The notes beneath the pieces were generated by a model. It did not search any database. It had not been told where the DNA came from and saw nothing but the letters and a program-made list of their open reading frames with translations. The position numbers and the translations under genes were made by a program. A stretch of DNA of 64,000 bases, taken from the NCBI GenBank assembly GCA_023266575.1, contig JAHFPV010000006.1, positions 62,001 to 126,000 of the forward strand, read 5' to 3'. This document shows, piece by piece, positions 35,048 to 64,000 of the stretch (positions are counted from its first letter, which is position 1; every line of letters starts with the position of its first letter). The stretch comes from Sphingobium sp. Its GTDB lineage: Bacteria > Pseudomonadota > Alphaproteobacteria > Sphingomonadales > Sphingomonadaceae.

Positions 35048-35965
35048 CTATTGCGCGATGATCCTGACTGCGAAGGCTGCCGCCGCCGCCCGTGTCTCCA
35101 CGCCCAATTTCTCGAAAATCTGCTCCAGATGCTTGTTCACGGTGCGCGGGCTGATCACCAATATCTCGCTGATCACGCGGTTGGGTTTGCCATAGCTGAT
35201 CCATAGCAGCACTTCGGCTTCGCGCTGGGTCAGGGCGAAATGGCTTTGCAGCCGGGCAATGTCGGCCTGAGGGTCCAGATGATTGAGGCGGATGAGGGTT
35301 TCGCCTGCACGGGGGCGACCGACGATGATCAGTTCCACCGTGTCGCCACCGGGACTGTCGGTCTTGACCGTGGTGCCTGCGGGCAGATCGTCGGGCAGCA
35401 GGCGTCCGACCGGCGTCCGCAGCATCGCGGGCAGTGCGACGTCGGTGCGCGACCAGCCGGGTTCGAGCGCTTCCATGAGTTTGTCCGCGCCGGGCGTGCG
35501 CCACGACAGCGCGCCGTCGCTGCCGACCGCGATCAGGTTGCGGCCGGTCGCGTCGAGCGCATAATGCCCACCCTGCGTCTGGCGCGCATTGGCCATATGG
35601 ACGCGGACGCGGGCAAGTAATTCCTCGACCACGATCGGCTTGCGCACATAATCGACGCCGCCCGCCTCCAGCGCATGGACGACATGCTCGCTTTCGGTAA
35701 GGCCGGTCATGAAGATGATGGGCACCGGCGCGCCGCGCGGCATCTGCTTGATCGCGCGGGTGGTTTCAAAGCCGTCAAGGCCGGGCATCACCGCATCCAT
35801 CAGGATCAGGTCGGGCGTTACATGGGCCAGCAGTTCGAGCGCCGCTTCGCCGCTGGTGGCGATGAGGACGGAGATATTCGCGGCCTCCAGCGTGTCGGTC
35901 AGGAAACGGAGCGATTCCGGCGTATCGTCGACGACGAGGACGGTGTCGGCATGGGGTGTGGTCAT
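35048..35965 (-). CDS. LuxR-type response regulator, end of the urease operon
   Basis: A 305-residue regulator with a receiver domain at 1-125 (acidic pair Asp13/Asp14, phospho-acceptor Asp57 in LILMDAVMPG, Lys in VRKP) and a LuxR/FixJ-type HTH at about 240-300 (LTQREAEVLLWISYGKPNRVI). The middle region, about 130-235, has no motif I recognise and may be a small PAS-like or linker domain. Its ATG overlaps the stop of the hybrid kinase by four bases, so the two are a cognate pair. I infer that it binds the TACGTCA motif found upstream of ureD and the amine/ureohydrolase genes. Confidence 0.9.
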   Translation of the reverse strand: MTTPHADTVLVVDDTPESLRFLTDTLEAANISVLIATSGEAALELLAHVTPDLILMDAVMPGLDGFETTRAIKQMPRGAPVPIIFMTGLTESEHVVHALEAGGVDYVRKPIVVEELLARVRVHMANARQTQGGHYALDATGRNLIAVGSDGALSWRTPGADKLMEALEPGWSRTDVALPAMLRTPVGRLLPDDLPAGTTVKTDSPGGDTVELIIVGRPRAGETLIRLNHLDPQADIARLQSHFALTQREAEVLLWISYGKPNRVISEILVISPRTVNKHLEQIFEKLGVETRAAAAAFAVRIIAQ

Positions 35966-38900
35966 TTGACGGCCCTTATGATTTTTATCAGCCCCTTAAG
36001 GTCGAAACGGTCGAGATGGGCAAGCATCCGGGCGACGAGCGGCTGGGCCTCCGGCACGGCCGCTTCGAGCGCGCGGATGCTCGATTCGATACCGCGCACA
36101 TGGCCGATGATCGCCTTCTGCTCGATATCGGCCAGGATGGGCAGCGCGTCGTCTGGCAAGACAGGCACGTCAAACTCGTCGGGCGCTGGCGCAGGCGGCG
36201 GCGGGGCGTCGCCGGTCCAGCGGATGTGCAACTGATCGGCGATCGCGTCCAGCAGCGCGTCGAGATCGACCGGTTTCATCAGGAACATGTCATGCGCCGC
36301 CTGCCCGTCCCCGCCGCGATGATATTCATGGGCATTGGCCGACACCATGATGATCCGCACCGTCCCACCCAGTTTCGCGCGTAGCGCCCGGCTGATGTCC
36401 CAGCCGGATTCGCCGGGCATGGAGATATCGAGCAGGATGATGTCGGGCGCATCGCGGGCGGCAATCTCCAGCCCCGCGCGGCCGCTCAGCGCCTCCATGA
36501 CGGTGAAGTCGAGCGGTTCGAGCAGCCCGCGCAGCACCGCGACCTGCGCCGGATCATCGTCGATCAGCAATATCTTGCGCCGGTCGCCGACATAGCCCGA
36601 AATCCGGTCCACCGGCGGCGCATCCTCGACCGGGTTGGCGACATGACCCAGCATCAGGCGGACTGTGAACTGCGTTCCGCGACCGGATTCACTGACGACG
36701 GACAGGTCGCCGCCCAATATCTGCACCAGCGCCTGGGTGATCGACAGGCCAAGGCCGATCCCTTTCTGACGCTGCGCATCCGGGTTGCTGCCGCGATCGA
36801 ACGGGTCGAACACGCGCTTCAAATCATCGGGCGCGATACCGATGCCGGTGTCGATAATGTCGAAGGTCGCCATCTGGCTGCGATAGGCGACGCGGAAGGT
36901 GACGGAGCCGGTGCGGGTGAACTTGATCGCGTTGGACAGCAGGTTGATCAGGATTTGGCGTAGGCGTTTCTGGTCGGTGCGCACGAAATCGGGCAGCTGG
37001 TCGGGGCGCTCGAAGAGAAATTCGATGCCCTTCGACTGCGCCTGCGGTCGGAACATGTTGGCGATCTGGTCGACAAAGGGGGCCAGGCGCACGGTTTCGC
37101 TGCTGATGCGCAGCACACCGCTTTCGACCTGGCTGATGTCCAGCAGCCCTTCGACCAGATTGGTGAGATGTTCGGCGCTGCGGCGGATGATCTTGGCGGC
37201 TTCGACCGGGGCGATGTCATGGCCGCGTTCCATCAACTGGGCATAGCCATAGATGGAGTTGAGCGGCGATCGGATTTCATGGCTGACGCTGACGAGATAG
37301 CGGCTCTTGGCGGCATTGGCGGATTCGGCGGCTTCCTTCGCTTTTTGCAACTGCGTGCCAGTCACGTCATGGGCGATCACCTCTTCCATCAGCTTCTGCA
37401 CATGATGCTCGCTTTCCTGCATAGCGGAGCGGCGGCTTTGATGGGCCAGCACGATCATCCAGGCGATGACCCCGCCGAACAGCGAAAAAAGCAGGAACAG
37501 CCCCAGCATCAGGCCGGACATTTCCGCCGCAATGTCCGGCATCCGGCGGCCGATCTGCCAGTTGATGCCGCCGAGCAGGGCGGCATTGGCAATGGTGATC
37601 GCGGCCATGACGGCGATGAAATGGCCGACCGGCGTATGGACGTAACGGGCTATGCGTTGCGGGAGCAGCCGTTCGAGCCAGCGCGCGGCCTGCTGCGTGG
37701 CGCGGCTGTCGCTTTTGCAGCGGTCGTGGCACCGCGCCTCCAGCGTGCAGCAGAGCGAGCAGATCGGCGCGGCAAACATGGGGCAATGCGCCATATCGAC
37801 CGGCTGGAAGCTGTTTTCGCAGATGATGCAGGTCTTGATGTCGTCCCCCTCCGTCACCTCGGCACGGCGGGCGATATAATAGCGGCCATGGGTGAGCAGA
37901 GCGATCAGTGGTGCCGCCATGAAGGCGACCGCCATACCAACGACGGGCGCGAAGGCCTGCGCCACATCGCCCAGCAGGCCCAGATGCGCGCTGCCCGATA
38001 TCAGGATCGACAAGAGCATCGCGCCGATGCCAACCGGATTGATGTCATAGAGGTGTGCGCGCTTGAATTCGATTCCGGCGGGGGAAAGGCCGAGCGGCTT
38101 GGAGATCATGAGATCGGCGGCTAGCGCCCCGATCCAGCCTGCCGCAGCGGTGGCGTAGAGGATCAATATCGCCTCGATCGCGTCGAAAATGCCGACTTCC
38201 ATCAGCAATAGTGCGAGCAATACGTTGAAGATCAGCCATACGACGCGGCCGGGATGGCTGTGGGTCAGGCGAGCGAAGAAATTGGACCAGGCGATCGAGC
38301 CGGCATAGGCGTTGGTGACATTGATCTTCAATTGGCAGACGATCACGAACAGCCCGGTGATGACGAGCGACAGTCCTGCATGGCCCGACATGGCGGTGAA
38401 GATCGCGTGGAACATGGCCGTCGGGTTGGAGGCGTCACTGGCCAAAGCCGCGCCGCCGATCAGATAATGGGCGAGCCAGGAGCCAAGCAGCAGCTTCATG
38501 CCGCCGATCAGTGTCCAGCCCGGTCCGCCCGCCAGCATCGCCGCCCACCATTTGCCCTTGCCGATCTTTTTGGCGCTGGGGAGGAAGCGCAGATAATCCG
38601 CCTGCTCGCCGATCTGGGGGAGAAGCGAGAGGAGGGTGGAAAGCGCGAAGCCGAAACAAAGCAGGCTGACGCTGCCATCTTTCGCGCCCAACTGGCCGGT
38701 GAAGCGGGACCATTCCGCAAGCGCCGTCGGGCCGGACCAGATGATATAGGCAATGGGCGCGATTTGCAGCGCGATCCAGATGCCCTGCGTCGCGTTCTGG
38801 AACCGTGTGATGGCGCTCATGCCGTAGAGGGCAATGGGGATCACCACCAGCGCGCTTACCAGATAGGCGATGCTCATCGCCATGCCTGTCATCGCGGTCA

Positions 38901-39321
38901 GCGCGACCGCCATGATCGTCGCTTCGACCGAGAAGAGCAGGAAGGTGAAGCTGGCGTAGATCAAGGAGGTGAGGGTGGAGCCAAGATAGCCGAACCCCGC
39001 GCCGCGTGTCAGCAGGTCGATGTCCAGCCCATGCTTTGCAGCATGATAGGCGATTGGCAGGCCGATGATGAACATAAGCGCGACGGCGGCAGCGATGGCC
39101 GCGACGCTGTTGGCAAAGCCATAGGTGAGCGTAATCGACGCGCCGATCGCTTCGCAGGCCAGAAAGGCAGTCGCGCCGATAGCGGTATTGGCGACCTGCC
39201 CCGCCGACCAGCGCCGGGCGCTGTCGGCGGTGTAGCGCAGGGCATAATCCTCCAATGTCTGGCTGGCGACCCATTTATTGTAGAGCCGCTTTTCGCGCAG
39301 GACATAGGCGGCGCGATCCAT
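35962..39321 (-). CDS. NCS1-permease-fused hybrid histidine kinase
   Basis: A 1119-residue fusion. Residues 1-480 form a permease-like region of about twelve helices resembling NCS1 nucleobase/allantoin/cytosine transporters. Residues 498-535 form a Cys-rich module (Cys498, 501, 513, 521, 524, 525, 531, 535). Two more helices follow at about 565-590 and 600-627. The HisKA phospho-acceptor is His681 in VSVSHEIRSPL, the ATPase N-box is NLLSNAIKF near 793-801 with DTGIGIA at 824-830, and a receiver carries Asp965 in LLDISMPG. A C-terminal tail of about 100 residues resembles a phosphotransfer or HPt-like helical domain. It starts at the base where ureG stops and overlaps its response regulator. 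The permease part is probably the ligand sensor, as SLC5 is in CbrA; urea, a guanidino compound or a nucleobase derivative are candidates. Confidence 0.88.
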   Translation of the reverse strand: MDRAAYVLREKRLYNKWVASQTLEDYALRYTADSARRWSAGQVANTAIGATAFLACEAIGASITLTYGFANSVAAIAAAVALMFIIGLPIAYHAAKHGLDIDLLTRGAGFGYLGSTLTSLIYASFTFLLFSVEATIMAVALTAMTGMAMSIAYLVSALVVIPIALYGMSAITRFQNATQGIWIALQIAPIAYIIWSGPTALAEWSRFTGQLGAKDGSVSLLCFGFALSTLLSLLPQIGEQADYLRFLPSAKKIGKGKWWAAMLAGGPGWTLIGGMKLLLGSWLAHYLIGGAALASDASNPTAMFHAIFTAMSGHAGLSLVITGLFVIVCQLKINVTNAYAGSIAWSNFFARLTHSHPGRVVWLIFNVLLALLLMEVGIFDAIEAILILYATAAAGWIGALAADLMISKPLGLSPAGIEFKRAHLYDINPVGIGAMLLSILISGSAHLGLLGDVAQAFAPVVGMAVAFMAAPLIALLTHGRYYIARRAEVTEGDDIKTCIICENSFQPVDMAHCPMFAAPICSLCCTLEARCHDRCKSDSRATQQAARWLERLLPQRIARYVHTPVGHFIAVMAAITIANAALLGGINWQIGRRMPDIAAEMSGLMLGLFLLFSLFGGVIAWMIVLAHQSRRSAMQESEHHVQKLMEEVIAHDVTGTQLQKAKEAAESANAAKSRYLVSVSHEIRSPLNSIYGYAQLMERGHDIAPVEAAKIIRRSAEHLTNLVEGLLDISQVESGVLRISSETVRLAPFVDQIANMFRPQAQSKGIEFLFERPDQLPDFVRTDQKRLRQILINLLSNAIKFTRTGSVTFRVAYRSQMATFDIIDTGIGIAPDDLKRVFDPFDRGSNPDAQRQKGIGLGLSITQALVQILGGDLSVVSESGRGTQFTVRLMLGHVANPVEDAPPVDRISGYVGDRRKILLIDDDPAQVAVLRGLLEPLDFTVMEALSGRAGLEIAARDAPDIILLDISMPGESGWDISRALRAKLGGTVRIIMVSANAHEYHRGGDGQAAHDMFLMKPVDLDALLDAIADQLHIRWTGDAPPPPAPAPDEFDVPVLPDDALPILADIEQKAIIGHVRGIESSIRALEAAVPEAQPLVARMLAHLDRFDLKGLIKIIRAVK

Positions 39322-39965
39322 CAGATCGCGGCAGGGAAGGGGCGCAGGCCGCCGGTCGCCACGATGAAGTCGATGACCGCTTGCAGCCCGATATTGTCCT
39401 TGAGGTTGGTGAACAGGAAGGGGCGCTCCCCGCGCATCTTCTTCGCGTCACGGTCCATCACGCCCAGATCCGCGCCGACCAGCGGAGCCAGGTCGATCTT
39501 GTTGATCAGCAGCAGGTCGGACCGGGTGATGCCGGGGCCGCCCTTGCGCGGAATCTTGTCGCCCGCCGACACGTCGATGACATAGATGGTGATGTCGGCC
39601 AGTTCGGGCGAGAATGTCGCGGCCAGATTGTCGCCGCCGCTTTCGATGAAGATGAGTTCCAGGCCGGGAAATTTGCGGTGCATCGTATCGACGGCGGCCA
39701 GATTGATGCTGGCATCCTCGCGGATCGCGGTGTGCGGGCAGCCGCCGGTTTCCACGCCCATGATCCGTTCAGGCACCAGCGCGCCGGATCGGGTGAGAAA
39801 CTCCGCATCCTCGCGGGTGTAAATGTCATTGGTGATGGCCGCGATATTATAATGGTCGCGCATCGCCTTGCACAGCCGGTCGGTCAGCGCGGTCTTGCCG
39901 GAGCCGACCGGGCCGCCAATGCCGATGCGCAGGGGACCGTTATGACCAGAAGAAACCGGATTCAT
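39321..39965 (-). CDS. ureG: urease accessory GTPase
   Basis: A 214-residue SIMIBI GTPase that powers nickel delivery to urease. The P-loop [11 protein letters not shown] lies near residues 17-27, the metal-binding CPH motif is in [10 protein letters not shown], and NKIDL is the guanine motif. Length and order match the family. It follows ureF with a four-base overlap and its stop shares a base with the start of the hybrid kinase, which places that sensor in the same transcript. Confidence 0.97.
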
Positions 39966-40642
39966 GATCGGAACAACCTTGTATAAAGTGTTTCGTGGGA
40001 AAGGCTGGCGAGTTCAAGGTCTGGTGCGGCGGTGCCGAGATCGTCGAGCGGCGTGTGGAGCGCCTTCTCTACAATGGCGGGAATGGCATGGGATAGCGCG
40101 GCGAGCGCCAACTGGCCATCGGTCTGGCCCAATGGCACGAGCCGCACGCCCGCCGAGACGAGATTGGCGGCGGTCGCGTGCAGCCAGCCGTGCAGCGCCG
40201 GTTCCAGCGGTATGTTGTGTACGGCGCAGGCCAGCGCCATGACGGTGGCATGGGCGATGGGGTCATCGCCGTTGCGTGCCGCGAAAGAGTCGAGTGCGGG
40301 GTGCGGCCATGCCCGCCGCGTGACCGACAGGAAGGAGCCACCCTGCTGGCGGCTTTCGAGCGCGGTTTCGCTGCTGCCGCGAAAAGCGGCGGCGAGTTCG
40401 GACAAGGCATCGAACGCAGCGTCATCCTGCGCAGCGCGGTGGGCGTGAACGAACAGCACGGCATCGATCCAGCCGCCGCCCCGCGCCAGCACCGCCTCGA
40501 CATAGGCGGTGACATGGCCAGCGGTAGTGATGCGGCCATCCTCGACTGCGGTTTCCAGTCCATGGCTGTAGGTGAAACTGCCCACCGGATAGGAGGGCGA
40601 GGTCCAGGCCAGCAGGCGGTGAAGCGCGGCGTCAGCCAGCAT
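39962..40642 (-). CDS. ureF: urease accessory protein UreF
   Basis: A 226-residue helical protein that acts with UreD and UreG in urease activation. The family opening [21 protein letters not shown] is clear, and the C-terminus [10 protein letters not shown] matches the conserved tail that contacts UreD. ATG 40642 gives this normal N-terminus; a longer upstream extension in frame is only read-through of ureE in another frame. It overlaps ureE by 11 bases and ureG by four. Confidence 0.95.
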
Positions 40643-41102
40643 GGTGGTCGTGCGCGTGATGATGATGGCCGCCGCCAGAATAAGCACCGCCCTCCGGCGT
40701 GAAGGGGGCGTGGATTTTCGTGACGGTCGCGCCCAGCCCCTCCAGCATGGCGTTGATGACATGGTCGTCGCGCAGACGGATGGCATGGGGGTGCAGTTCG
40801 GCGGGCAGATGCCGGTTGCCGATATGCCAGGCAAGGCGGATCATCGCGGACGGGTCTGCGGCGGTGACCTCGACCAGCGCTTCGGGCGCGGCGAGGATTT
40901 CGACCAGCCGCCCGTCGGACAGTTGCACCGCATCGCCATGATTCAGCACCGTCGCACGAGCCAGGTCGAGCAGGAACAGCGTACCATGGTCGGCGGTGTA
41001 GACCCAGCGGCGGCGGTGGCGCGCGTCATGATCCAGCATGATATGGTCGGCGGCAGGGCCGGACCAGTGGCCGTGGGGGATGACGTCATGGGCGGTCAGC
41101 AT
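40632..41102 (-). CDS. ureE: urease nickel metallochaperone UreE
   Basis: A 156-residue nickel carrier with the UreE N-terminal beta domain and the C-terminal ferredoxin-like domain (HIGNRHLPAELHP contains a conserved metal-site His). The tail ends [14 protein letters not shown], a His-rich nickel-storage extension. It overlaps ureF. A 139-base gap with an inverted repeat separates it from ureC. Confidence 0.95.
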   Translation of the reverse strand: MLTAHDVIPHGHWSGPAADHIMLDHDARHRRRWVYTADHGTLFLLDLARATVLNHGDAVQLSDGRLVEILAAPEALVEVTAADPSAMIRLAWHIGNRHLPAELHPHAIRLRDDHVINAMLEGLGATVTKIHAPFTPEGGAYSGGGHHHHAHDHHAG

Positions 41103-41241: not shown

Positions 41242-42954
41242 TCAAAACAGGAAATATCTCTGAGCAAACGGCAATACAGTCGCCGGTTCGCATGTCAGTA
41301 ACTCGCCATCGGCCCGCACCTCATAGGTTTCGGGATCGACCTGAATGTCGGGCATCGCGTCGTTCAAAACCATCGACGCCTTGCCGATCCCCCCGCGCGT
41401 GTTGCGTACCGCCTCCAATGGCCGCGCCAGTTGCAGCCGTTCACCGATCCCGTCCGCTATCCCCGCCGCCGATACGAAATGCACCGCCGACATTGCGCCC
41501 GCTCGGCCCATGCTGCCGAACATCGGGCGGTAATGGACCGGCTGGGGCGTCGGGATGCTGGCATTGGGATCGCCCATCGGTGCGGTCGCGATGCTGCCGC
41601 CCTTGATCACCAGATCGGGCTTTACCGCGAAAAAGGCAGGGGACCACAGCACCAGATCGGCCAGCTTCCCCACCGCGATCGAGCCGACGATATGGCTGAT
41701 GCCATGGGCGATGGCCGGGTTAATCGTATATTTGGCAATATAGCGTTTGGCGCGGAAATTGTCGCTGTCGGCGTCGTCCGATCCCAACGACCCGCGCTGC
41801 TGCTTCATCTTGTCGGCACTCTGCCAGCAGCGGATGATCGTCTCCCCCACCCGCCCCATCGCCTGGCTGTCCGACGACATCATCGAGAAGGCACCAAGGT
41901 CGTGGAGAATATCCTCCGCCGCGATCGTCTCCTTGCGGATGCGGCTGTCGGCGAAGGCGACGTCCTCGGCGATGCGGGGGTCGAGATGGTGACAGACCAT
42001 CAGCATGTCGAGATGTTCCTCGATCGTGTTGACGGTATAGGGCCGGGTCGGGTTGGTGGAGGAGGGCAGGACGTTGGGCAGGCCCGCCAGCTTGATGATG
42101 TCGGGCGCATGACCGCCGCCCGCACCCTCGGTGTGGAAGGCGTGGATGGTACGCCCCTTGAACGCGCCGATCGTGCTTTCGACGAAGCCGGCTTCGTTCA
42201 GCGTATCGGTATGGATCGCGACCTGAATATCAAACTCGTCCGCGACCGACAGGCAGCAGTCGATCGCGGCAGGGGTGGTCCCCCAATCCTCGTGCAGCTT
42301 CAGGCCACACGCCCCCGCGTGGATCATTTCGACCAGCGCGGCAGGCTGGCTGGCATTGCCCTTGCCCATCAGCCCGAAATTCATCGGCATGGTTTCCAAC
42401 GCTTGCAACATGCGTCCGATATGCCAGCCGCCCGGCGTGCAGGTCGTCGCCAGCGTGCCATGCGCCGGGCCGGTGCCGCCACCCAGCATGGTGGTGATGC
42501 CTGCGTTGAGCGCTTCCTCCACCTGTTGCGGGCAGATGAAATGGATATGCGCGTCGATGCCACCGGCGGTCAGGATACGGCCTTCGCCTGCGACAATCTC
42601 CGTACCGGGACCGATGGGAATGGTGACGCCGGGCTGGACGTCCGGGTTGCCCGCCTTGCCGATCGCGGCGATGCGGCCATCGCGGATCGATACGTCCGCC
42701 TTGATAATCCCCCAATGGTCGAGGATCAGCGCGTTGGTGATGACTGTGTCGGGCGCGCCGTCCGCGCGGCTCATCTGGCTTTGCCCCATGCCGTCGCGGA
42801 TCACCTTGCCGCCCCCAAACTTCACCTCCTCGCCATAGACAGTCAGGTCGTCCTCGACCCGGATGAGGAGGGAGGAGTCGCCCAGCCGCACCCGGTCGCC
42901 GGTGGTCGGGCCGAACATCCCGGCATAGGCGCGGCGAGGGATGATTACGGGCAT
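41242..42954 (-). CDS. ureC: urease alpha subunit
   Basis: The 570-residue catalytic subunit hydrolyses urea to ammonia and carbamate in the cytoplasm. Nickel ligands are visible as His136/His138 in AHIH and the carbamylated Lys219 in [10 protein letters not shown]. The mobile flap with its Cys-His pair is MVCHHLDPR, and the C-terminus ends RYFLF as usual. The gene is flanked on both sides by intergenic palindromes that interrupt an otherwise compact operon. Confidence 0.98.
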
Positions 42955-43081: not shown

Positions 43082-43387
43082 TCACAATTCCCCCATCACA
43101 TCACCGCGAAAACCGATGACGATCCTGTCCCCCGCATAAGGGATGAGTTGGACGTCCCGGCTCTGCCCCGGCTCGAAACGGACGGCGGTGCCGGACGCAA
43201 TATCCAGCCGATAGCCGCGCGCTGCGTCGCGATCGAACAGGAGGGCAGGGTTCGTCTCGGCGAAATGATAATGGCTGCCGACCTGGATCGGCCGGTCGCC
43301 GCTATTGGCGACGGTCAGGCTGATCGGCACCCGCCCTGCGTTCAGGACGATGTCGCCAGCGGCGGGGATGATTTCGCCGGGGATCAT
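43082..43387 (-). CDS. ureB: urease beta subunit
   Basis: A 101-residue non-catalytic urease subunit. It begins [19 protein letters not shown], the family N-terminus, and contains [17 protein letters not shown] 43402 is an upstream in-frame alternative, but the resulting extra five residues are unlike relatives and no better ribosome site precedes it. Confidence 0.95.
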
Positions 43388-43429
43388 GCGTTCAACGCCC
43401 ACAACCGAACGGAGGTTTATGAACGCCGC

Positions 43430-55583: not shown

Positions 55584-57053
55584 ATGATGCCTTCTTTGAC
55601 CGCCGTTACAGGATGGAGCATGGCCGGGATCGCGGCGATCGGGGCCGTGCTGGCAGGCGACCTGCCCAACGCGGCCACGCCCGCGCCGCAAATGCCGGCC
55701 GAAGATGATATGGGCAAGCCCAAGCCGCTGGAACTGCCCAAGGATGTCGAGGCGAAGCTGGCCGGCATCGACAAGGCGAAGATCGACTTTCTCAAGAGCG
55801 GCGTCACCGGGCGCTATGTTGAGAAGGACGCGCTGTTCGATCGTATCCGCACCAGTAAGCCGGAAGAGATCAGTGCCTATATCGACGCGATGCAGGCGCT
55901 GCACGCGCAGGTCGAATTCAAGGCCGGGCGCGATGTCGCGGCGATCCCGCTCGACACATCATCGCCCTGGTTCAACGCCTGGAAGGCGAAACGCCCCGCG
56001 ACGATGGACCCACGGCGTGAGGCCGGGCCGATGGAGTTGACCCGTTACATTGGTGGCTTTGGCGGGGGCTTTGCAACCTTTGCCGGTGCGCCGCTGGCGA
56101 TGACGCCGGAGGATCTGAAAGCGGGCAAGGTCGATGTCGCCATCGTCGGCGCGCCGCTCGATATGGGGTCAGGCTGGCGCAACGCAATCGATGGGCCGCG
56201 CGCGATGCGGATGACCGGCGGGGCTGGCGGCAATGACATGTATTCGATGATCAACCCCAATGCGGCGCTGAAAGTCGTCGATTATGGCGACATCGCCATC
56301 GACCAGAATTCGACCGAACGCAGCGTCGATCATGTCCGCGCGATGGTGGCGGAAATCGCCCGCACCGGCGCGATCCCGATCGTCATCGGGGGCGACCACA
56401 GCCTGGAATATCCCAATGTCGCCGCCGCCGCCGATGTCCATGGCAAGGGCAATGTCGGGGTCATCCATTTCGACAGCCATTATGACATTGGCCGGGGCCG
56501 CGTGCATCTGCTCGATCATGGCCAGCCGGTCTATCGCGTCATCAATGAAGGCCATGTCCGGGGCAGCGACTATATCCAGGTAGGCCTGCGCGCGCGGGGT
56601 CCCGATCTCGAAACCTTCGGCTGGATGCGCAACAAGGGCATGAAATATCACACGATGGTCGAGGTCGAAAAATGGGGCTGGGACAAGGTTATGGCCCGTG
56701 CGCTGAAAGAAGCGCGGACCAGCACCAAGAAGCTCTGGATCAGTTTCGACGTCGATGTGCTCGACCCCGCCTTCATGCCGGGCACCGGCACCCCGGTTCC
56801 CGGTGGCCTTACCATGCGGGAGGCGCAGCCGATCATGCGCAACCTGTGCGCGGAAAATGACATTGCCGGCATCGATATCGTCGAAGTCGCGCCCTATCTC
56901 GACACCAGTTACAAGACCGCGCTCAACAGCAATTTCCTGCTGAACGCCTGTCTCGCGGGTATCGCCATGCGCAAGAAAGGGTTGAAGCCCGGCTATCTCA
57001 ACCCGGTGTCGGTCGATCATGGGCTGGACGCTTATTATGGGAAGAAGAACTGA
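55584..57053 (+). CDS. exported ureohydrolase, copy 2
   Basis: A 489-residue agmatinase/arginase-family protein, clearly paralogous to the gene at 44725-46224 along its whole length, including the helical N-terminal extension. Signal-like hydrophobic residues 10-25 (GWSMAGIAAIGAVLAG) suggest export or anchoring. All metal ligands are kept: His272 in GGDHS, Asp297/His299/Asp301 in FDSHYD, and Asp389/Asp391 in SFDVDVLDPA. ATG 55584 follows GGAG; the second ATG at 55587 is nearly equivalent. It is translationally coupled to copy 3, whose ATG shares a base with its stop. The expected reaction is guanidino compound to amine plus urea. Confidence 0.87.
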   Translation: MMPSLTAVTGWSMAGIAAIGAVLAGDLPNAATPAPQMPAEDDMGKPKPLELPKDVEAKLAGIDKAKIDFLKSGVTGRYVEKDALFDRIRTSKPEEISAYIDAMQALHAQVEFKAGRDVAAIPLDTSSPWFNAWKAKRPATMDPRREAGPMELTRYIGGFGGGFATFAGAPLAMTPEDLKAGKVDVAIVGAPLDMGSGWRNAIDGPRAMRMTGGAGGNDMYSMINPNAALKVVDYGDIAIDQNSTERSVDHVRAMVAEIARTGAIPIVIGGDHSLEYPNVAAAADVHGKGNVGVIHFDSHYDIGRGRVHLLDHGQPVYRVINEGHVRGSDYIQVGLRARGPDLETFGWMRNKGMKYHTMVEVEKWGWDKVMARALKEARTSTKKLWISFDVDVLDPAFMPGTGTPVPGGLTMREAQPIMRNLCAENDIAGIDIVEVAPYLDTSYKTALNSNFLLNACLAGIAMRKKGLKPGYLNPVSVDHGLDAYYGKKN

Positions 57054-58438
57054 TGGCGCGCACCGCTTTGCTGGCGCGTGGCGCCGCTCTTGCCCTGGCC
57101 CTTGCAGCCCTGTCCGCGCCCGCCATGGCGCAGGGCAGCGATCCGCTGGCCAGCCTGTCGCCGGAGAAGAAGGCCTTTCTGTCCGACCCGGCAGTGCTGG
57201 CCCGCTTCGGCCTGACGGACGAGAAATTGCAGGTAGCGCTGGCGGGGCGCTCCGCCGCCGATGTCGACGCCTATGCCAGCGCGTTGATGGCGGTGGTGGA
57301 GGATAGCAAATATATGGCCGGTCGCGATCCGTCGGAGATTGCGCTCAACCCGCAGGCGCGCGGCTGGAACGCCAGCACGACGTTGCGCCCCAAGCTGTTC
57401 GACAAGCGAAAGCGCGACGATGGCCCGTTCAGCCTGAAACGCTATCTGTTCCAGCGCGGCGGGGTGCCGACCTTTGCCGACGCGCCGGTCGCGCTGCGCA
57501 AGGAAGATCTGGTCGCGGGCAGGGTGGAGGTCGCCTTTGTCGGCGTGCCGCTCGATTTCTCGTCGGGCTGGCGCGATTCCAAACATGCACCGATGGCGTT
57601 GCGCGGGATGGACGGGCTGGTCGGCGCAGATGCCGATGGCGGGGTAGATCCGGGCCTGCTGCTGTCGATCGCCGACTATGGCGATCTGGCGATCGACCCG
57701 ATGGCGCCCGAACGCGGGCTGCCCCATGTCCGCATGATGATCGCCGAGATGGCGAGCGTCGGCGTGGTGCCGTTCATCGTCGGGGGCGATCATGCGGTGA
57801 TGTTTGCCGATGTCGCGGCGATGGTCGATACCTATGGCGCGGGCAAGGTCGCGCTGGTCCAGTTCGATGCCCATGCCGGGGCGGAGCTGAACGGCGATCA
57901 TCTGATCTCCGACACGCAGACTCTGACCCGATTGATGCAGCAAAATTTGTTGCGCGGCAGCGACGTGACGCTGGTCGGCCTGCACGGGCGCGACGCTGAT
58001 CCGGCGACGCAGAAGCGGTTGACCGACAGCGGCGCACGCATCCTGCCCACGGCCGCGATACAGGAACGCGGCTGGCAGGCGGTAACCAAGGAGATATTGG
58101 CGGGCCTGAAGCAGGGACCGGACAATGTCTTTATCTCGTTCGACATGAGCGTCCTTGATCCGGGCGATGCGCCAGCGTCAGGCCGTCCGGTGCCCGGCGG
58201 CATCACCATGCGGGAGGCGATCCCGATGGTGCGGCAACTCTGCGCGCAGACCAAGGTGGTCGGCTTCGACCTGCTTGATGCAGCGCCGATCCTGGACCCC
58301 ACCTATGTCAGCCGGATGAGCGCCAACTATATATTGCACGCCTGCCTGAGCGGCATTGCGCTGCGCAAGAAGGGGGCTGCGACGCCCATTTCGGCCGAGC
58401 AAGAAGGGGCGGTTAAGTCCGCCCGCAAAAAATCTTGA
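57053..58438 (+). CDS. exported ureohydrolase-like protein, copy 3, metal site altered
   Basis: A 461-residue relative of copies 1 and 2 with a standard signal peptide (ALAALSAPAMAQ). His247, Asp272, His274 and Asp364 remain, but the second Asp of the DxHxD motif is Gly276 (FDAHAGAE) and the second Asp of the DxD motif is Ser366 (SFDMSVLDPG). By arginase numbering these are Asp128 and Asp234, one ligand from each metal. A normal binuclear manganese site is therefore unlikely. It may be a non-catalytic partner of copy 2, a mononuclear enzyme, or specific for another metal or bond. Coupled translation with copy 2 favours a complex. Confidence 0.85.
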   Translation: MARTALLARGAALALALAALSAPAMAQGSDPLASLSPEKKAFLSDPAVLARFGLTDEKLQVALAGRSAADVDAYASALMAVVEDSKYMAGRDPSEIALNPQARGWNASTTLRPKLFDKRKRDDGPFSLKRYLFQRGGVPTFADAPVALRKEDLVAGRVEVAFVGVPLDFSSGWRDSKHAPMALRGMDGLVGADADGGVDPGLLLSIADYGDLAIDPMAPERGLPHVRMMIAEMASVGVVPFIVGGDHAVMFADVAAMVDTYGAGKVALVQFDAHAGAELNGDHLISDTQTLTRLMQQNLLRGSDVTLVGLHGRDADPATQKRLTDSGARILPTAAIQERGWQAVTKEILAGLKQGPDNVFISFDMSVLDPGDAPASGRPVPGGITMREAIPMVRQLCAQTKVVGFDLLDAAPILDPTYVSRMSANYILHACLSGIALRKKGAATPISAEQEGAVKSARKKS

Positions 58439-58477
58439 TGCCTGTCCAGTTGCCTATGGCGGATTGTCGCGGGGCCA

Positions 58478-58561: not shown

Positions 58562-60292
58562 GTGAAGCGGGTAACACTCTCGAAATTCGGGTTGCTGGCG
58601 CTGTTTTCCACCTCGATCCTGTTCGCGCAGGCCGATGGCGGGCCGGACGGCGCGACGATGAAGGAAAGCGATCCGGGCATCCCGGTTGCCGACGCGCTGG
58701 TCAAGGAAAAATGCGGCACCTGCCACACCCCCGATGCCAAGGGGAATTTGTCGCGGATCAGCTGGGTTCGGACCACGCCGGAGGGCTGGTCGCAGGCGAT
58801 CAAGCGGATGGTGCGGCTGAATGGCCTGGCGATCACGCCCGATGAATCGCGGGCTATCGTCAAATCGCTGTCCGCATCGCATGGCCTGGCCCCGCAAGAG
58901 GCGCTGCCGGTCATGTATCTGGCCGAAAAGCGGACGATCGACGAAACCAATATCCCCAACGAAACCATGCGCGGCGCGTGCGCGGCCTGCCACAGTTTTG
59001 CCCAGCCTTTGTCCTGGCGTCGGTCGAAGCTGGAATGGAAGCAGTTGCAGGATCTGCATGTCGCCATGTATTCGCAGGCGGACGCGCAATATCGCCGTCC
59101 AGCCGAGGATAGCGAACAGCCAGCGGGCCGCGACCCCAAGGACAAGATGCTGCGCGGGGAATATGCGCTGACCTACATGGCCAAGGCCGCGCCGCTGCAC
59201 ACGCCCGAATGGGCGGCATGGCGATCACGCCAGAGTGTGCCGCGTCTGGCAGGCGAATGGCTGGTCGTGGCATCCGCGCCGGGGCAGGGGCGGTTCGTAG
59301 GCAATTTCATCGTCAAGCCGGGCAAATCGGCGGACGAATTTGTGACCAGCAGCACGCTGCGGTCGTTGACCAATGGCGGCACGGTAAGCCGCAGCGGCGC
59401 TGGCATCGTCTATGCCGGCTATAGCTGGCGCGGATCGTCGAGGGGGGCGGTAGCCGCTGGCAAACCCGATGATCTGGCAAGCGCTGCGCGAGAGACGATG
59501 TGGTTCGCTCCCGACCAGCAGAGCGCGATCGGCCGCTGGTATTGGGGCGATTATCAGGAATTCGGGCTGGACGTGAAACTGATCCGCGCGACAGCCGCGC
59601 CCGCCGTGCTGGCCGTTATACCCGGCCCGGTCAAGGCGGGGACAAAGGGCGCGCAATTCCGCATCGTGGGGCATAATCTGCCCGCATCGCTCACTCCCGC
59701 AGACATTGATCTGGGTGTCGGCGTGACTGCAACCAAGATCGTATCGGCCAGCCCGCAGGAACTGGTGGTGACCGCCGATGTCGCCGCCGGGGCGGCATCT
59801 GGACAGCGCAACGTGGCGATCGGCGGCGCAGTGCTGGAGCAGGCTTTCCCGGTCTATAGCAAGATCGACTATATCAAGGTGACACCCGAAACCGCTGTGT
59901 CGCGGCTGGGCGGGATCAAATTTCCCAAAGGCTATGCGCAGTTCGAGGCGACCGGATTCGAAAATGGCATCGACGGGAAGCAGGGTACGGCGGATGACAT
60001 TGCGGTCGGGCCAGTCGATGTCACCTGGTCGACGCAGGAATATCTGGCGGTCTATTATGATGATGACGCCAAATATGTCGGGGCGCTCAGCCCGGCTGCG
60101 CTCTTTACCCCCAATAGCGAAGGGCCGAACCCGGCCCGCCGCTTTGGCCGCAACAATTATGGTGATGTCTGGGTCGTCGCCACGGCCAAGGCCGAGAAGG
60201 ACAAGTTCGGCAAGCCGCTGACCGCCCGTTCCTACATGGTCGTCACCGTACCTGCCTATCAGAAATGGGATCAACCGGAGGTGTCGCAATGA
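58562..60292 (+). CDS. qhpA: quinohemoprotein amine dehydrogenase, alpha (diheme) subunit
   Basis: A 576-residue periplasmic subunit with a signal peptide (about 1-23). Two c-type hemes bind at Cys51-x-x-Cys54-His55 (CGTCH) and Cys140-x-x-Cys143-His144 (CAACH). The rest forms the three beta domains of QHNDH alpha, including the Ig-like stretch starting PAVLAVIPGPVKAG. It carries electrons from the quinone cofactor of the gamma subunit to a cytochrome or azurin. It starts at GTG 58562 after AGGG and overlaps qhpD by four bases, the head of a tightly coupled operon. Confidence 0.95.
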   Translation: MKRVTLSKFGLLALFSTSILFAQADGGPDGATMKESDPGIPVADALVKEKCGTCHTPDAKGNLSRISWVRTTPEGWSQAIKRMVRLNGLAITPDESRAIVKSLSASHGLAPQEALPVMYLAEKRTIDETNIPNETMRGACAACHSFAQPLSWRRSKLEWKQLQDLHVAMYSQADAQYRRPAEDSEQPAGRDPKDKMLRGEYALTYMAKAAPLHTPEWAAWRSRQSVPRLAGEWLVVASAPGQGRFVGNFIVKPGKSADEFVTSSTLRSLTNGGTVSRSGAGIVYAGYSWRGSSRGAVAAGKPDDLASAARETMWFAPDQQSAIGRWYWGDYQEFGLDVKLIRATAAPAVLAVIPGPVKAGTKGAQFRIVGHNLPASLTPADIDLGVGVTATKIVSASPQELVVTADVAAGAASGQRNVAIGGAVLEQAFPVYSKIDYIKVTPETAVSRLGGIKFPKGYAQFEATGFENGIDGKQGTADDIAVGPVDVTWSTQEYLAVYYDDDAKYVGALSPAALFTPNSEGPNPARRFGRNNYGDVWVVATAKAEKDKFGKPLTARSYMVVTVPAYQKWDQPEVSQ

Positions 60293-61743
60293 CCGTGATG
60301 CAGGCACCCACCTATCGCCGGGCGGAATATCATGGCTTTGACGCCGGGGGCAGCGACTTTGTCTATCTGGTGAGCGCAGGCGCGATCTTCGAGATCGACC
60401 CCGATGTGCGCGCGGTTCTGGACCGGCTCGACGGGCAGGAACTGACCCATGCGGCGCTGGTGCGTGAACTGGTCGCCGATGGACGCGCGGCGGAAGAAGC
60501 CGATGGCCTGGTGCGCGAATTGCGGCAGGCGCGGCTCATCCATCTGGGCCATGCCATGCCGGTGGCGCAGGTGCCGCAAGCACCCCCGGCGGACTTCCCG
60601 TTGCAGGCGCTGGTGCTGAACGTCACCAACCAGTGCAATCTGGCCTGCACTTACTGCTACGAATTTGGCGCGGACAAGATCGCGACGCCGGCGGGCAAGC
60701 CCAAATATATGACGCTCGACACGGCGATGGCGTCGGTCGATCTGCTGATCGCCGAGGCGGTCGGCCGTAAGTCGGTGCATATCACCTTCTTCGGCGGCGA
60801 AACGCTGATGAATTTCAAGCTGCTGCGCGACGTGGTGGCCTATGCCAATCATGCGACCGCGGCGGCGGGCAAGGCGATCACCTACAGCCTGACCACCAAC
60901 GCCACGCTGCTGACGCCGGAGATCGTCACCTTCCTGTCGGACAACCGGGTCGGGGTGACCGTGTCCATGGATGGCCCGCCGGAATTGCAGGACAAGCATC
61001 GCGTCTATAAAAATGGCAAGGGCAGCTATGCGGTGATCGAGCCGCGGCTGCGGACCTTGATCGCCCATCACAAGACGCGGGCCATCACCGCGCGCGTGAC
61101 GCTGACCGAAGGCGTGACCGATGTGGTGCGTATCTTCCGCCATCTGAAGGATGATCTGGGCTTCCACGAGGTCGGCTTTGCGCCGGTGACTACGGGCGAA
61201 GAACGCGCCTATTCGCTGGATGGCAATGGCATGGACAGCGTGCTGGCGCAGTTCAACAGCCTAGCGGACGAATGGCTGGAATATGCGCTGCGCGGGGAGT
61301 CGCACGGCTTCACCAATGTCAGCGAAACGATCAGCGAGCTGATTTCGGGCGTAAACAAATCGCATCCCTGCGGCGCTGGCCTTGGGCTGATGGGGGTCAG
61401 CCCATCGGGCGACCTGTCGCCCTGCCATCGCTTCACAGACGCCGACACGCACACGATGGGGCATGTCTCCAGCGGCATCGACCGGGCCAAGCAGGGCGAG
61501 TTCCTGGCCAAGGGGCATGTCGAGGCCAAATATGACTGTCAGAGCTGCTGGGCGCGACCGCTGTGCGCAGGCGGATGCCATCATGAGGCGTTCGTCCGCT
61601 ATGGCGACACCGGCCACGCCAACCTCCATTATTGCGACTGGATACGCCAGTGGACCGACACCTGCCTGCGTATCTACGGCGTGCTGTCGGTGCGTAATCC
61701 CGGTTTCCTCGAACGCTTCGCCGAAAGAAAGGGGCTGTCATGA
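60289..61743 (+). CDS. qhpD: radical-SAM/SPASM maturase of QHNDH
   Basis: A 484-residue enzyme that forms the Cys-to-Asp/Glu thioether crosslinks in the gamma subunit. The SAM cluster is Cys116, Cys120 and Cys123 (CNLACTYC), and FFGGET is a SAM motif. C-terminal SPASM cysteines include HPCGAG, SPCHRF, CQSCWARPLCAGGC and YCDW. A small N-terminal peptide-recognition region precedes the barrel. It acts in the cytoplasm before export of the gamma subunit and is encoded directly before its substrate, with a four-base overlap. Confidence 0.95.
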   Translation: MTVMQAPTYRRAEYHGFDAGGSDFVYLVSAGAIFEIDPDVRAVLDRLDGQELTHAALVRELVADGRAAEEADGLVRELRQARLIHLGHAMPVAQVPQAPPADFPLQALVLNVTNQCNLACTYCYEFGADKIATPAGKPKYMTLDTAMASVDLLIAEAVGRKSVHITFFGGETLMNFKLLRDVVAYANHATAAAGKAITYSLTTNATLLTPEIVTFLSDNRVGVTVSMDGPPELQDKHRVYKNGKGSYAVIEPRLRTLIAHHKTRAITARVTLTEGVTDVVRIFRHLKDDLGFHEVGFAPVTTGEERAYSLDGNGMDSVLAQFNSLADEWLEYALRGESHGFTNVSETISELISGVNKSHPCGAGLGLMGVSPSGDLSPCHRFTDADTHTMGHVSSGIDRAKQGEFLAKGHVEAKYDCQSCWARPLCAGGCHHEAFVRYGDTGHANLHYCDWIRQWTDTCLRIYGVLSVRNPGFLERFAERKGLS

Positions 61744-62099
61744 AGCATCTTCGTGCCATCAATAAAAAGGCGCAGCGGATCGACGAAGCCGTGACGCAGA
61801 TGGAAGCGGCAGCATCGCCGAATGCGGACATGGAGGAGGATGTGGTCGCCCTCCAGCAGGTCCCGCGCCCGCATGTGCCGATGGGCTGTTCGCTCTCTTT
61901 CTCCCCCGGCTGGGAAGTCGATGCGAGCGGCGGCACGGCGGGGCTGTGCCAGCCGGTCGAGCGCGACATTTACGACTGCTATGTCACCTGTTTCTGGCCG
62001 GTGCAGGTGCCCGATCATGTCAACTATTCGCCCGACTGGGCCAGCAACTGCGCCACCGCGACCAAGGACTGGCGCAGTCTCGATCTTATTTTCCCATGA
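61740..62099 (+). CDS. qhpC: QHNDH gamma subunit carrying the CTQ cofactor
   Basis: A 119-residue catalytic subunit with a leader of about 43 residues. Aligned by eye to the Pseudomonas putida subunit, every crosslink partner is present: Cys50-Glu59, Cys70-Asp76, Cys84-Asp92 thioethers, and Cys80-Trp86 for cysteine tryptophylquinone. Cys104 is an extra cysteine near the C-terminus not used in the known scheme. The leader must be removed by a protease (QhpE in other species), which is not seen before the window ends. It oxidises primary amines to aldehydes plus ammonia. Confidence 0.95.
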   Translation: MKHLRAINKKAQRIDEAVTQMEAAASPNADMEEDVVALQQVPRPHVPMGCSLSFSPGWEVDASGGTAGLCQPVERDIYDCYVTCFWPVQVPDHVNYSPDWASNCATATKDWRSLDLIFP

Positions 62100-63196
62100 G
62101 GGCCGCCATGCCGAAATATCGTCTGATGCTGGGCGCTGGCCTGGCGATGCTGAGCGCCATGCCCTTGAATGCGGCGACGTTGTTCATGGGCTCCTATCCA
62201 GACCGCCTGCTGGTGTTCGAGGAAAGCAAGGGCGCGGTCACCGGCACGATCAAGCTGGACACCGGCCTGCCGACATCGATGCAATTGTCCGATGATGGCA
62301 AGCGCATCTATGTGACGACCATCACCACCAGCGGGATCGAGGTGATCGACACCGCGACGCGCAAGGTGATCAACAAGTTCAGCCTGAATGACGGCACGAC
62401 CCGCTACCGTTTCTGGGGCGGCGTGCCCGATCCGACCGGGCGCTATTTCTACACCGTCATCTCGAAATTCGAGAAGGGGATCGACCGCTATACCGTCAGC
62501 AAGCCCATGTATGGCGTCATCGACCTGAAGCTGCAAAAGGTCGTCCGCACTGCCGAGATCGACAAGGAGGATGAGCGTTCTGGCGGCTGGCGCGCGGGCT
62601 ATAAAGTGTCGCCCGACGGAAAGACGCTCTACGCCTTTGGCGAAAAGGTCGCGATTATCGATGTTGCGACATTGAAGGTCACCGACCGGATAGACCTCGC
62701 CAAGCCTGAAGGCACCGGCATGGAGAATGTCGGCTTTGGCGGCACGTTGGATGCGATCCGCACGCCGGGCCAATATGTGTCGCTGTTCAATGCCGCTGAC
62801 GCCTATGTCCATAACAAGATGTTCGGCATGGCGCGTTTCGACCTGTCCACCCGGCAGTTTGATTTTACCCCCATCGGCCCCGCGCCCGACGCTATGGCCG
62901 GGTTGCAGGTCACGCCCGACGGCAAGCAGGCCTATACCGTCGTTACCAACGGCAAATATGGCAATAAGCGCTGCGAATTCTGGCATATGGACATGGCCAG
63001 CAACGCCGTGGTCGACAAGGCGGAATTTCCCTGCCGATCGCGTTTCCGTCTGGGCATGTCGACCGATGGGGCGAAGCTCTACATCTATGGCGCGAGCTAT
63101 GATCTGGAAGTCTATGACGCCAAGACATTGAAGCATGAGGTGACGCTGGACCTGGGCTATGACACCACTGGCGCAGGCATGGTCGCGGTGGAATGA
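62096..63196 (+). CDS. qhpB: QHNDH beta subunit (seven-bladed propeller)
   Basis: A 366-residue periplasmic subunit with a signal peptide (RLMLGAGLAMLSAMPLNAA) and repeated propeller strands (ATRKVINKFSL, DPTGRYFYTVI, SPDGKTLYAFG, TPDGKQAYTVV, STDGAKLYIYG). It encloses the gamma subunit and forms part of the substrate channel. ATG 62096 overlaps the qhpC stop; ATG 62108 with GAGGG upstream is an alternative four codons later. Confidence 0.93.
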   Translation: MRAAMPKYRLMLGAGLAMLSAMPLNAATLFMGSYPDRLLVFEESKGAVTGTIKLDTGLPTSMQLSDDGKRIYVTTITTSGIEVIDTATRKVINKFSLNDGTTRYRFWGGVPDPTGRYFYTVISKFEKGIDRYTVSKPMYGVIDLKLQKVVRTAEIDKEDERSGGWRAGYKVSPDGKTLYAFGEKVAIIDVATLKVTDRIDLAKPEGTGMENVGFGGTLDAIRTPGQYVSLFNAADAYVHNKMFGMARFDLSTRQFDFTPIGPAPDAMAGLQVTPDGKQAYTVVTNGKYGNKRCEFWHMDMASNAVVDKAEFPCRSRFRLGMSTDGAKLYIYGASYDLEVYDAKTLKHEVTLDLGYDTTGAGMVAVE

Positions 63197-64000
63197 CCGA
63201 ACCGCGCATGATCGTCGGCATAAGGGGCAGCGGGATTGCCGCGACGACATGCGCACATCTGCTGAACGGAGCGGGCCTTCGGGTCGCAAGCGAAGCCGCC
63301 CATCGCGCGCCAGTGCCGACGATCATGCTCAGCGATCCGGCCCTGGCGCTACTGCGCGACATATTCGGGCGGCCCGACCTGTTTGCCGACAGTCCCCGGA
63401 TCAAGCGCCGTGTGGTCGCCTGGGGTGGCGCGCCGGTGGTGGTGCCGCATGGCGCGGCGCTGGCGTCGGAAGATCAGGTACAGGCGGCTTTGGCGGGGGA
63501 ACAGCCTGTCGCAGGGGATCAGCCGGTTGATTTCATGATCAACGCCGCGCCGCCTCTGCCGCTGGGCGAAATGCGGATTTTTGGCGATCGCAATGCCGTG
63601 GCGACGGAGGTGCGGCTGCGCGACCCGGCGTGCAACGAAGAAGGCCGGGTCGAGGCGGTGCCGAACGGCTGGTTGTTTCTGGTGCCAGCCGGTCCGGGGG
63701 AAGGCTGGTTGCTGGCAGTGGGGGGATCGCTCGACGATCTGCTGGCGGAAAGCTCACTGATCGCGCCGGTCATTGATGCCGTGGGGGCGGTGTCGATGCC
63801 GTTCCTCGCCGCGCCGCGTCTGCATCTGCCCCTGTGCGGTGACGACTGGCTGGCCTGCGGCACGGCGGCGCTGGGCTTCGATCCGATCTGCGGCGATGGC
63901 ACGGCGCAGTCGGTGCGGGAGGCGATACTGGCGTCCGCCGTTTTGATCGGCATAGCGGAGGGCGGTGATGCGGCGGCGCTGCTGACCCATTATCAGTCCA
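63193..64000 (+). CDS. qhpG: FAD-dependent monooxygenase for CTQ formation, partial
   Basis: The open frame runs off the window; 269 codons are visible. The N-terminal FAD fold has VGIRGSGIAATTCAHLL, and the later flavin-binding motif is FDPICGDGTAQSVREAI. QhpG hydroxylates the gamma-subunit tryptophan on the way to cysteine tryptophylquinone. It overlaps the qhpB stop by four bases. The order A-D-C-B-G matches the known operon with qhpE and qhpF missing from between, so these may follow or be supplied elsewhere. Confidence 0.88.
   Translation, partial: MTEPRMIVGIRGSGIAATTCAHLLNGAGLRVASEAAHRAPVPTIMLSDPALALLRDIFGRPDLFADSPRIKRRVVAWGGAPVVVPHGAALASEDQVQAALAGEQPVAGDQPVDFMINAAPPLPLGEMRIFGDRNAVATEVRLRDPACNEEGRVEAVPNGWLFLVPAGPGEGWLLAVGGSLDDLLAESSLIAPVIDAVGAVSMPFLAAPRLHLPLCGDDWLACGTAALGFDPICGDGTAQSVREAILASAVLIGIAEGGDAAALLTHYQS

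Follow-up and report, generated by a model that had tools for sequence, protein, structure and literature searches.

In a 64,000-nucleotide stretch of DNA from Sphingobium sp. (positions 62001–126000 of the 181-kb contig JAHFPV010000006.1, assembly GCA_023266575.1; from here: the window), three ureohydrolase genes with export-type N-termini (U1, U2 and U3) share an island with a complete set of urease genes, an operon for quinohemoprotein amine dehydrogenase (QHNDH), an IorAB-type molybdenum enzyme and a TonB-dependent receptor. We read this island, with moderate confidence, as a periplasm-first route for guanidino compounds, comprising hydrolysis, urea import and amine oxidation. An earlier interpretation of the letters alone (from here: the sequence-only reading) had proposed such a system, without the urea import, within about 29 kb. 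All the parts it listed were recovered in their places, the genes by Pfam and NCBIfam profiles, but the system continues beyond the window edge to about 73.2 kb, with qhpFE, a second pair of genes for a peptidyl-prolyl isomerase (PPIase) and a HupE protein, and the urea transport genes urtABCDE.

The gene content, the conserved motifs and residues and the co-occurrence of these genes are plain in the genomes compared here. The pathway that we infer from them, in its export, activity, substrate, heteromer, electron flow and regulation, would run as follows. A substrate R-NH-C(=NH)NH2 would enter via the TonB receptor and be hydrolysed in the periplasm to R-NH2 and urea by dinuclear-metal ureohydrolases, namely U1 alone and a U2–U3 heteromer. 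UrtABCDE would import the urea and cytoplasmic urease would convert it to ammonia. In sphingomonads possessing QHNDH, R-NH2 would be oxidised within the periplasm to the aldehyde and the exported IorAB-type enzyme would take the aldehyde to the acid, both enzymes handing electrons to the respiratory chain. A hybrid kinase and a LuxR-type regulator would probably switch on ure, urt, U1, the first PPIase–HupE pair (PPI1–Hup1), the TonB receptor and U2–U3 via the motif TACGTCAAATGCCC, and qhp is possibly read through from U2–U3.

The broader proposition is that a widespread clade of exported heteromeric ureohydrolases, each a catalytic subunit with a pseudoenzyme, starts periplasmic guanidino catabolism, that the urea is imported for urease, and that sphingomonads oxidise the amine in place by QHNDH and a molybdenum aldehyde oxidase; we give it an even chance. 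If true, bacteria would have a novel means of exploiting cationic guanidino compounds that need not be taken up intact: the carbon part would be oxidised to feed respiration outside the cytoplasm, while nitrogen would enter as urea. A rule would also follow for annotating genes at present labelled 'agmatinase', and guanidino compounds whose use needs urtA would become substrate candidates. The ureohydrolases characterised in the literature compared here (metformin hydrolase, guanidinase) are not described as exported in the available portions of those papers.

Ureohydrolases with export-type N-termini

The three window genes match the ureohydrolase profile PF00491, U1 at 44725–46257 on the minus strand (E-value 3e-73; with the start chosen by eye, the gene spans 44725–46224), U2 at 55557–57053 (+; 5.6e-71) and U3 at 57053–58438 (+; 1.2e-46). 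All three proteins possess an N-terminal hydrophobic segment, which is missing from a fourth ureohydrolase of this genome, U4, encoded outside the window (window positions 74308–75417; L005:12308–13417 in L005, the stretch that runs past the window edge). Both the PF00491 profile and the six metal ligands characteristic of the superfamily are present in U1 and U2; in U3 the profile matches but ligands are missing. The sequence-only reading had spoken of exported ureohydrolases without distinction; this stands for the intact U1 and U2 and fails for U3, which has lost catalytic residues. The three are thus not equivalent: two are intact, and the third is a probable pseudoenzyme.

In an alignment of 32 intact members, H271, D296, H298, D300, D388 and D390 as well as H311 and E433 are invariant (U2 numbering, counted from a start at 55587). 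By analogy with arginase and agmatinase, we take the first six to be the metal ligands, while H311 and E433 presumably correspond to the catalytic His and to the Glu that binds guanidinium. For U2, the structure model (mean pLDDT 82.7) resembles guanidinase, guanidinobutyrase, guanidinopropionase, agmatinase and metformin hydrolase. Among solved sequences, U2 is nearest to Pseudomonas aeruginosa guanidinobutyrase (3nio), and the best PDB match of U4 is guanidinopropionase (3nip; E 8.2e-78). The chains of 3nio and 3nip, with 319 and 326 residues, lack the long N-terminal part of U2, in which the match starts at residue 170.

A scan of contigs yielded at least 79 loci, comprising 63 family loci at an identity of at least 42% (L026–L088) and 16 loci with agmatinase-like proteins of 32–37% identity as controls (L089–L104). 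The 63 are not all independent, as L026/L032, L027/L031 and L028/L035 come from one genome or one island. A mechanical ORF pick drew 83 family ORFs, 81 of them long, from 56 of the 63 loci. By a crude rule of thumb, with start codons picked mechanically, an export-type N-terminus was assigned to 66 of the 81 long family ORFs versus 1 of 15 control agmatinases among the loci listed; the rule was passed by U1, U2 and U3 of the window and failed by U4, and the actinobacterial and chloroflexal records L071, L073, L075 and L087 appear cytoplasmic. The family branches away from the control agmatinases in a phylogenetic tree, and the putatively exported ureohydrolases form one broad clade, newly recognised here. 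A search of the full texts of open-licence PMC papers found no description of an exported or periplasmic ureohydrolase or agmatinase. When U1 was searched against a sample of 383 genomes of the phylum, matches were found in 2, so the family is rare, and U1 gave no match in a phage collection.

U3 and 19 relatives form a single clade (20 rows, SH-aLRT 100) in a quick tree that was calculated without a mixture model and without metformin hydrolase, some long branches being flagged. In all 18 aligned degenerate rows the last Asp ligand is replaced by Ser, the active-site Glu by Asp and the HG motif is gone; further ligands are missing in some of them. All 19 degenerate genes in the other listed loci have an intact gene on the same strand that overlaps or lies at most 11 bp away. 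Such genes were found in Sphingobium, Pacificimonas, Komagataeibacter, Paraglaciecola, Lysobacterales, Pseudohongiella, Woeseiaceae and other gammaproteobacterial records. By analogy to metformin hydrolase, U3 is probably a non-catalytic partner of U2, and on this tree the degenerate subfamily, newly recognised here, appears monophyletic. The U2–U3 type of pairing probably arose separately from that of metformin hydrolase, because the best PDB match of U3 is an active guanidinase (4.9e-30, versus 8.3e-13 for the degenerate subunit of metformin hydrolase) and because its clade groups with the exported partners. A profile of the degenerate group argues slightly against a separate origin, since it slightly favours the degenerate subunit of metformin hydrolase (1.8e-31) over the active subunit (7.3e-27).

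Association with urease and urea import

The genes for UreABC and the accessory proteins UreDEFG are all present between 39321 and 44594 on the minus strand. They encode UreG (39321–39965; TIGR00101, 348.8 bits, cut-off 204.2), UreF (39962–40834, start uncertain; PF01730), UreE (40632–41102; UreE_N and UreE_C; NF009751, 146.5 bits, cut-off 144), the urease alpha subunit UreC (41242–42954; TIGR01792, 965.6 bits, cut-off 680), UreB (43082–43402; TIGR00192, 139.3 bits, cut-off 90.3), UreA (43430–43732, ORF to 43807; TIGR00193, 154.7 bits, cut-off 82.3, match from residue 26) and UreD (43737–44594; PF01774). Beyond the window edge, UrtA, UrtB, UrtC and UrtE score above their cut-offs (527.3/492.75, 338/250.3, 406.3/296.2 and 298.4/285.8 bits) and UrtD, with 303.8 bits against 304.1, misses by 0.3. 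Since the model would release urea in the periplasm while urease is cytoplasmic, an importer would be needed, and one sits in the same island; UrtABCDE could carry periplasmic urea to the urease.

In a genus sample of 94 genomes, 21 have an exported-type ureohydrolase, 22 UrtA, 25 UreC and 37 QhpA. UrtA occurs in 21/21 genomes with the ureohydrolase versus 1/73 without (Fisher p 5e-20), UreC in 20/21 versus 5/73 (p 8e-15) and QhpA in 20/21 versus 17/73 (p 2e-9), these p values carrying no correction for ancestry. Weak cases are included in the counts, namely genome G366, with fragments of U2 and UrtA, the latter below cut-off, and no UreC, and genome G327, with UreC in three pieces below cut-off. 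The sequence-only reading had named co-occurrence across genomes as one test of its proposal, and the gene groups do co-occur. To allow for ancestry, a gyrB tree was built from 93 genomes, all sequences being oriented by the gyrB of the window's genome; G357 is absent from it (no gyrB over the cut-off) and the gyrB of G327 is partial. Among 11 independent pairs, UrtA changed in the same direction as the ureohydrolase in 11 (median sign-test p 0.001), UreC in a mean of 9.7 (median p 0.002), QhpA in 7.0, none opposite (median p 0.016, range 0.008–0.031), and IorB in 6.7 (median p 0.016, range up to 0.063); on average, no pair went in the opposite direction for any of the four. Joint movement of the genes in a single island may account for some of this co-occurrence. 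In G332, G356 and G333 the half with U1 and urease lies more than 1 Mb from the half with U2, Qhp and Urt on one contig, yet the two co-occur.

Across the 63 listed family loci, UrtA flanks at least 6 (L033, L034, L035, L038, L069, L072), urease genes at least 6 (L028, L031, L032, L035, L049, L088) and PPIase plus HupE at least 18, all of these being lower bounds, since no flank exceeded 10 kb and a good many contigs are short (in L084 the sequence stops directly after U2). The 16 listed control loci gave no match to urease, UrtA–C, PPIase, HupE or QhpA–D. The coupling of periplasmic urea release to Urt and urease is thus well supported by comparison and we consider it likely.

An island of this kind in decay was seen in G366 (L141), where U2 and UrtA are partial and qhpA–E are still detected; no UreC or IorB was found in that genome.

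A probable amine branch in sphingomonads

Directly behind U3, the window encodes on the plus strand the QHNDH alpha subunit QhpA (58562–60292; TIGR03908, 577.5 bits, cut-off 274.35), the radical SAM maturase QhpD (60265–61743; TIGR03906, 647.9 bits, cut-off 453), the gamma subunit QhpC (61740–62099; NF037958, 136.4 bits, cut-off 50), a divergent beta subunit QhpB (62096–63196, start by eye, ORF from 61946; TIGR03907) and QhpG (63193–64000, continuing to 64200; NF049967). QhpA, QhpC, QhpD and QhpE exceed the curated cut-offs. QhpB (63.6 versus 223.2 bits) and QhpG (52.8 versus 240 bits) fall below theirs, with position and best family in agreement, and qhpF was named by its position and an ABC-type match only. 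The IorA-like 2Fe-2S subunit (46343–46846, +; Fer2, Fer2_2) and the IorB-like molybdenum subunit (46789–49026, +; MoCoBD_1, MoCoBD_2), the latter with a twin-arginine start recognised by eye (SRRAFIS), are encoded next to U1.

With a cut at 60% identity or more, set after the list was seen, IorB is found in 33 of the 94 genus genomes, all 33 with QhpA, and four QhpA genomes lack it; some IorB match at E 1e-100 or better exists in 48 of the 94. On the gyrB tree, the association of Qhp and Ior holds in 14.7 of 17 pairs (p 6e-5, 60% line). Among the 17 QhpA genomes without ureohydrolase, IorB is beside QhpA in 12, elsewhere in 2 and absent at the 60% line in 3. G315, the sole ureohydrolase genome lacking QhpA, likewise lacks IorB. 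Since IorB co-occurs with and adjoins QhpA, and G315 is without both, the likeliest role of IorAB is the aldehyde step following QHNDH. As a step of the pathway it is thus linked to QHNDH and not tied to the ureohydrolase as such; IorAB as part of the ureohydrolase system proper was rejected, because it tracks QHNDH.

In ureohydrolase genomes the Qhp and IorAB genes are both interleaved with the ureohydrolase genes. Of the 19 genomes with both IorB and the ureohydrolase, 17 have IorB no more than 5 kb from U1, and in the remaining two it sits on a different contig. QhpA is no more than 5 kb away from U2, its paralogue or U3 in 17 of the 20 genus genomes possessing both QhpA and the ureohydrolase. 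On a plasmid of Novosphingobium sp. RL4 the same gene set is found within about 45 kb in a different order, in which qhp comes last, after the regulator, a sulfotransferase and a TonB receptor.

These genes could instead be two independent nitrogen modules sharing an island, with QHNDH–IorAB merely moved adjacent and the ureohydrolase amine not a substrate of QHNDH. Fourteen genus genomes have QhpA and IorB without a ureohydrolase, adjacent in 12 of them; Pacificimonas, Pseudohongiella and others have the ureohydrolase without Qhp in the flanks; G315 has it without QhpA or IorB; and qhp is without a promoter site of its own. Against such independence stand the genus-level association, which withstands ancestry correction, the two different physical arrangements in two genera, and the place of IorAB, which in ureohydrolase genomes is beside U1 and not at its usual place beside qhpA. 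We therefore rate two independent modules as rather unlikely, and a QHNDH–IorAB branch of the guanidino route in sphingomonads as slightly better than an even bet. QHNDH does not generally belong to the ureohydrolase system; the two were found linked only in sphingomonads.

Promoter motif and regulators

The shared promoter motif of the sequence-only reading proved real: with at most 2 mismatches, TACGTCAAATGCCC has 5 sites in the window versus 0.44 expected, and none of 100 shuffles reached 5. They lie upstream of ureD (44623–44636, −, 1 mismatch), U1 (46289–46302, −, 2 mismatches), PPI1 (49389–49402, −, a near-palindromic form with 2 mismatches), the TonB receptor (55424–55437, −, exact) and U2 (55470–55483, +, exact). 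One further site, upstream of urtA in the next stretch, is unremarkable alone (at least one site in 19 of 200 shuffles), and all 6 sites in the 102 kb examined fall inside the island. RL4 has six sites at the six corresponding places. Further sites occur in L133 (G296; 5), L138 (G315; 6), L031 (3) and L035 (3), where the places were not matched individually to those of the window. Among the listed scan loci, 16 motif matches fall in the 7 kinase-containing loci, which together make up 147 kb, versus 18 in the remaining 72 loci, which include the controls and total 1.2 Mb; 14 of these 18 are in five Sphingobium-type island loci. The motif was not found in the stand-alone Qhp–Ior locus of G378, at the qhp end of RL4 or in the decayed island of G366.

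The island begins with a LuxR-type response regulator with receiver and GerE domains (35048–35965, −; PF00072, PF00196) and the hybrid sensor kinase (35962–39321, −), in which Pfam recognises HATPase_c, HisKA and Response_reg only. The N-terminal ~480 residues of the kinase are multi-span by hydropathy and transporter-like by eye, with no Pfam family. A profile of this membrane domain gave no match among PDB sequences up to E 1, and its structure model was unusable (pLDDT 44.7). The kinase accompanies Urt and urease, also in genome G313, and may sense urea.

Weighing the pathway

Several observations speak against the periplasm-first route, either in its general form or in single steps. G313 has 3 motif sites, kinase, regulator, Urt and urease in 20 kb (L135) without a ureohydrolase in the genome, so Urt, urease, the kinase and the motif may be there for urea of any origin. 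Within flanks of up to 10 kb, some of them truncated, QhpA–D were seen beside only 3 of the 63 listed ureohydrolase loci (L026, L027, L074), all Sphingobium-like, and in a sample of the order QhpA exceeds the cut-off in 26 of 296 genomes, of which only the window's genome has the ureohydrolase. In ten genomes of the order, all of one other genus and with ureohydrolase, relatives of HupE are only partial and distant, and no Urt or urease gene was seen near the ureohydrolase in five flanks from that other genus (L126, L127, L129, L130 and L142, the last of 5.3 kb). Another 11 genomes have IorB relatives at 54–58% identity (QhpA is present in 3 of them, one of these having a partial IorB match, and missing from 8), so the link between IorAB and QHNDH depends on the cut chosen. 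No TACGTCAAATGCCC site precedes qhpA at 2 mismatches. Finally, the N-terminus of U2 makes a weak signal peptide with few basic residues, and this segment could be an uncleaved anchor instead.

Because the motif also marks the urease/Urt island of G313, TACGTCAAATGCCC probably marks a urea regulon run by the kinase and the regulator, into which the ureohydrolases would have been recruited. The exported enzymes might instead cleave another amidino, ureido or formimidoyl group, with the urea genes linked for general scavenging. The G313 island fits this, as do the separate branching of the family from the control agmatinases and the want of any known substrate determinant that can be transferred. 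What makes us regard it as improbable is that the six ligands and the residues matching the catalytic His and the Glu that binds guanidinium, roles assigned by analogy with arginase, are invariant in the 32 members, that guanidinase, guanidinobutyrase, guanidinopropionase and agmatinase are the closest proteins of solved structure, and that UrtA accompanies the ureohydrolase in all 21 genomes of the genus sample that have it. A guanidino substrate remains our preferred assignment. Of the joint pathway in the sequence-only reading, the sequence from ureohydrolase over urea to urease is well supported by co-occurrence, with Urt next door, and the amine branch finds support in sphingomonads; QHNDH as a general component does not.

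The PPIase–HupE pair

PPI1, a membrane-anchored PPIC-type PPIase with one hydrophobic segment (49480–50283, +; PF13145), is followed by Hup1, a HupE/UreJ_2 membrane protein (50285–51286, +; PF13795). HupE of the island type (E <1e-60) was found in 21/21 genus genomes with ureohydrolase versus 0 of the 31 searched among the 73 without, five of these 31 possessing urease. No PPIase or HupE was seen in the 20 kb examined of the G313 island. The phylum sample of 383 contains 25 HupE-positive genomes, and 14 of their HupE loci, in genomes without ureohydrolase, were read (L244–L257). Pfam was used for the PPIase in two of these loci; elsewhere it was identified by eye, except in L245, where it was not made out. 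A DUF3604 protein stands beside the pair in 6 (Pfam) and a sulfatase in 1. These pairs rule out that PPIase–HupE is specific for ureohydrolases. We read it as perhaps helping exported enzymes to mature or supplying them with metal, not as a nickel device for urease. The HupE near metformin hydrolase is a nickel transporter according to the available text of PMC11399263.

Comparison with known systems

Metformin/dimethylguanidine hydrolases (MefH/DmgH, MetCaCb) are heterohexameric ureohydrolases, as far as the available text of PMC11399263 and PMC11271267 goes, and the same portions describe features shared with the island: adjoining intact and degenerate ureohydrolase genes, here U2–U3, a HupE-type gene nearby, and urease and urea transport genes. 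There, the degenerate subunit is required for activity; a heteromeric enzyme of this type would be active solely as a heterohexamer with Ni2+. Their genes adjoin those of the nickel chaperones HypAB in these accounts, whereas neither hypA nor hypB was recognised among the island proteins in general NCBIfam and Pfam scans, which were not aimed at them. The terms 'signal peptide' and 'periplasm' are absent from the main text of PMC11399263 and 'signal' from PMC11271267, whereas U2 and U3 carry export segments.

The guanidinase GdmH and the comammox guanidinase belong to the same superfamily, and 9fek and 7esr are among the best structural matches of U2. The available part of PMC11410670 gives Thr97 and Trp305 as the determinants for guanidine; in an alignment to 7esr, U2 has Ser/Gly and Thr instead, which rules out U2 as a guanidinase of the GdmH type. 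The main text of that paper likewise contains neither 'signal peptide' nor 'periplasm'.

QHNDH performs periplasmic amine oxidation in Paracoccus denitrificans, and the qhpA, D, C, B, G, F and E genes of the operon described there, in the portion of PMC7876137 available, are also present here. Unlike in P. denitrificans, qhp follows ureohydrolase genes in the window, and qhpB and qhpG are below the family cut-offs.

Other genes of the island and its surroundings

The TonB-dependent receptor (52885–55341, −; PF00593, PF07715) is preceded in the window by a gene for a TPR-sulfotransferase (51283–52848, +; Sulfotransfer_3 and TPR). Beyond the window edge, L005 contains the end of qhpG, then qhpF, qhpE, Hup2, PPI2 and urtABCDE, followed by an Ldh2-family dehydrogenase gene, the gene for U4, a cytoplasmic agmatinase-type enzyme, an APC permease gene directly behind it, a second TPR-sulfotransferase, recognised by eye, and a further TonB receptor. 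The Ldh2 gene, U4 and the adjoining permease were dismissed as members of the conserved set, as none of them was found in the flanks of the 63 listed family loci. Genes for TPR-sulfotransferases near TonB receptors recur, at 51283–52848, at L005:14829–16919 (by eye) and again on the RL4 plasmid.

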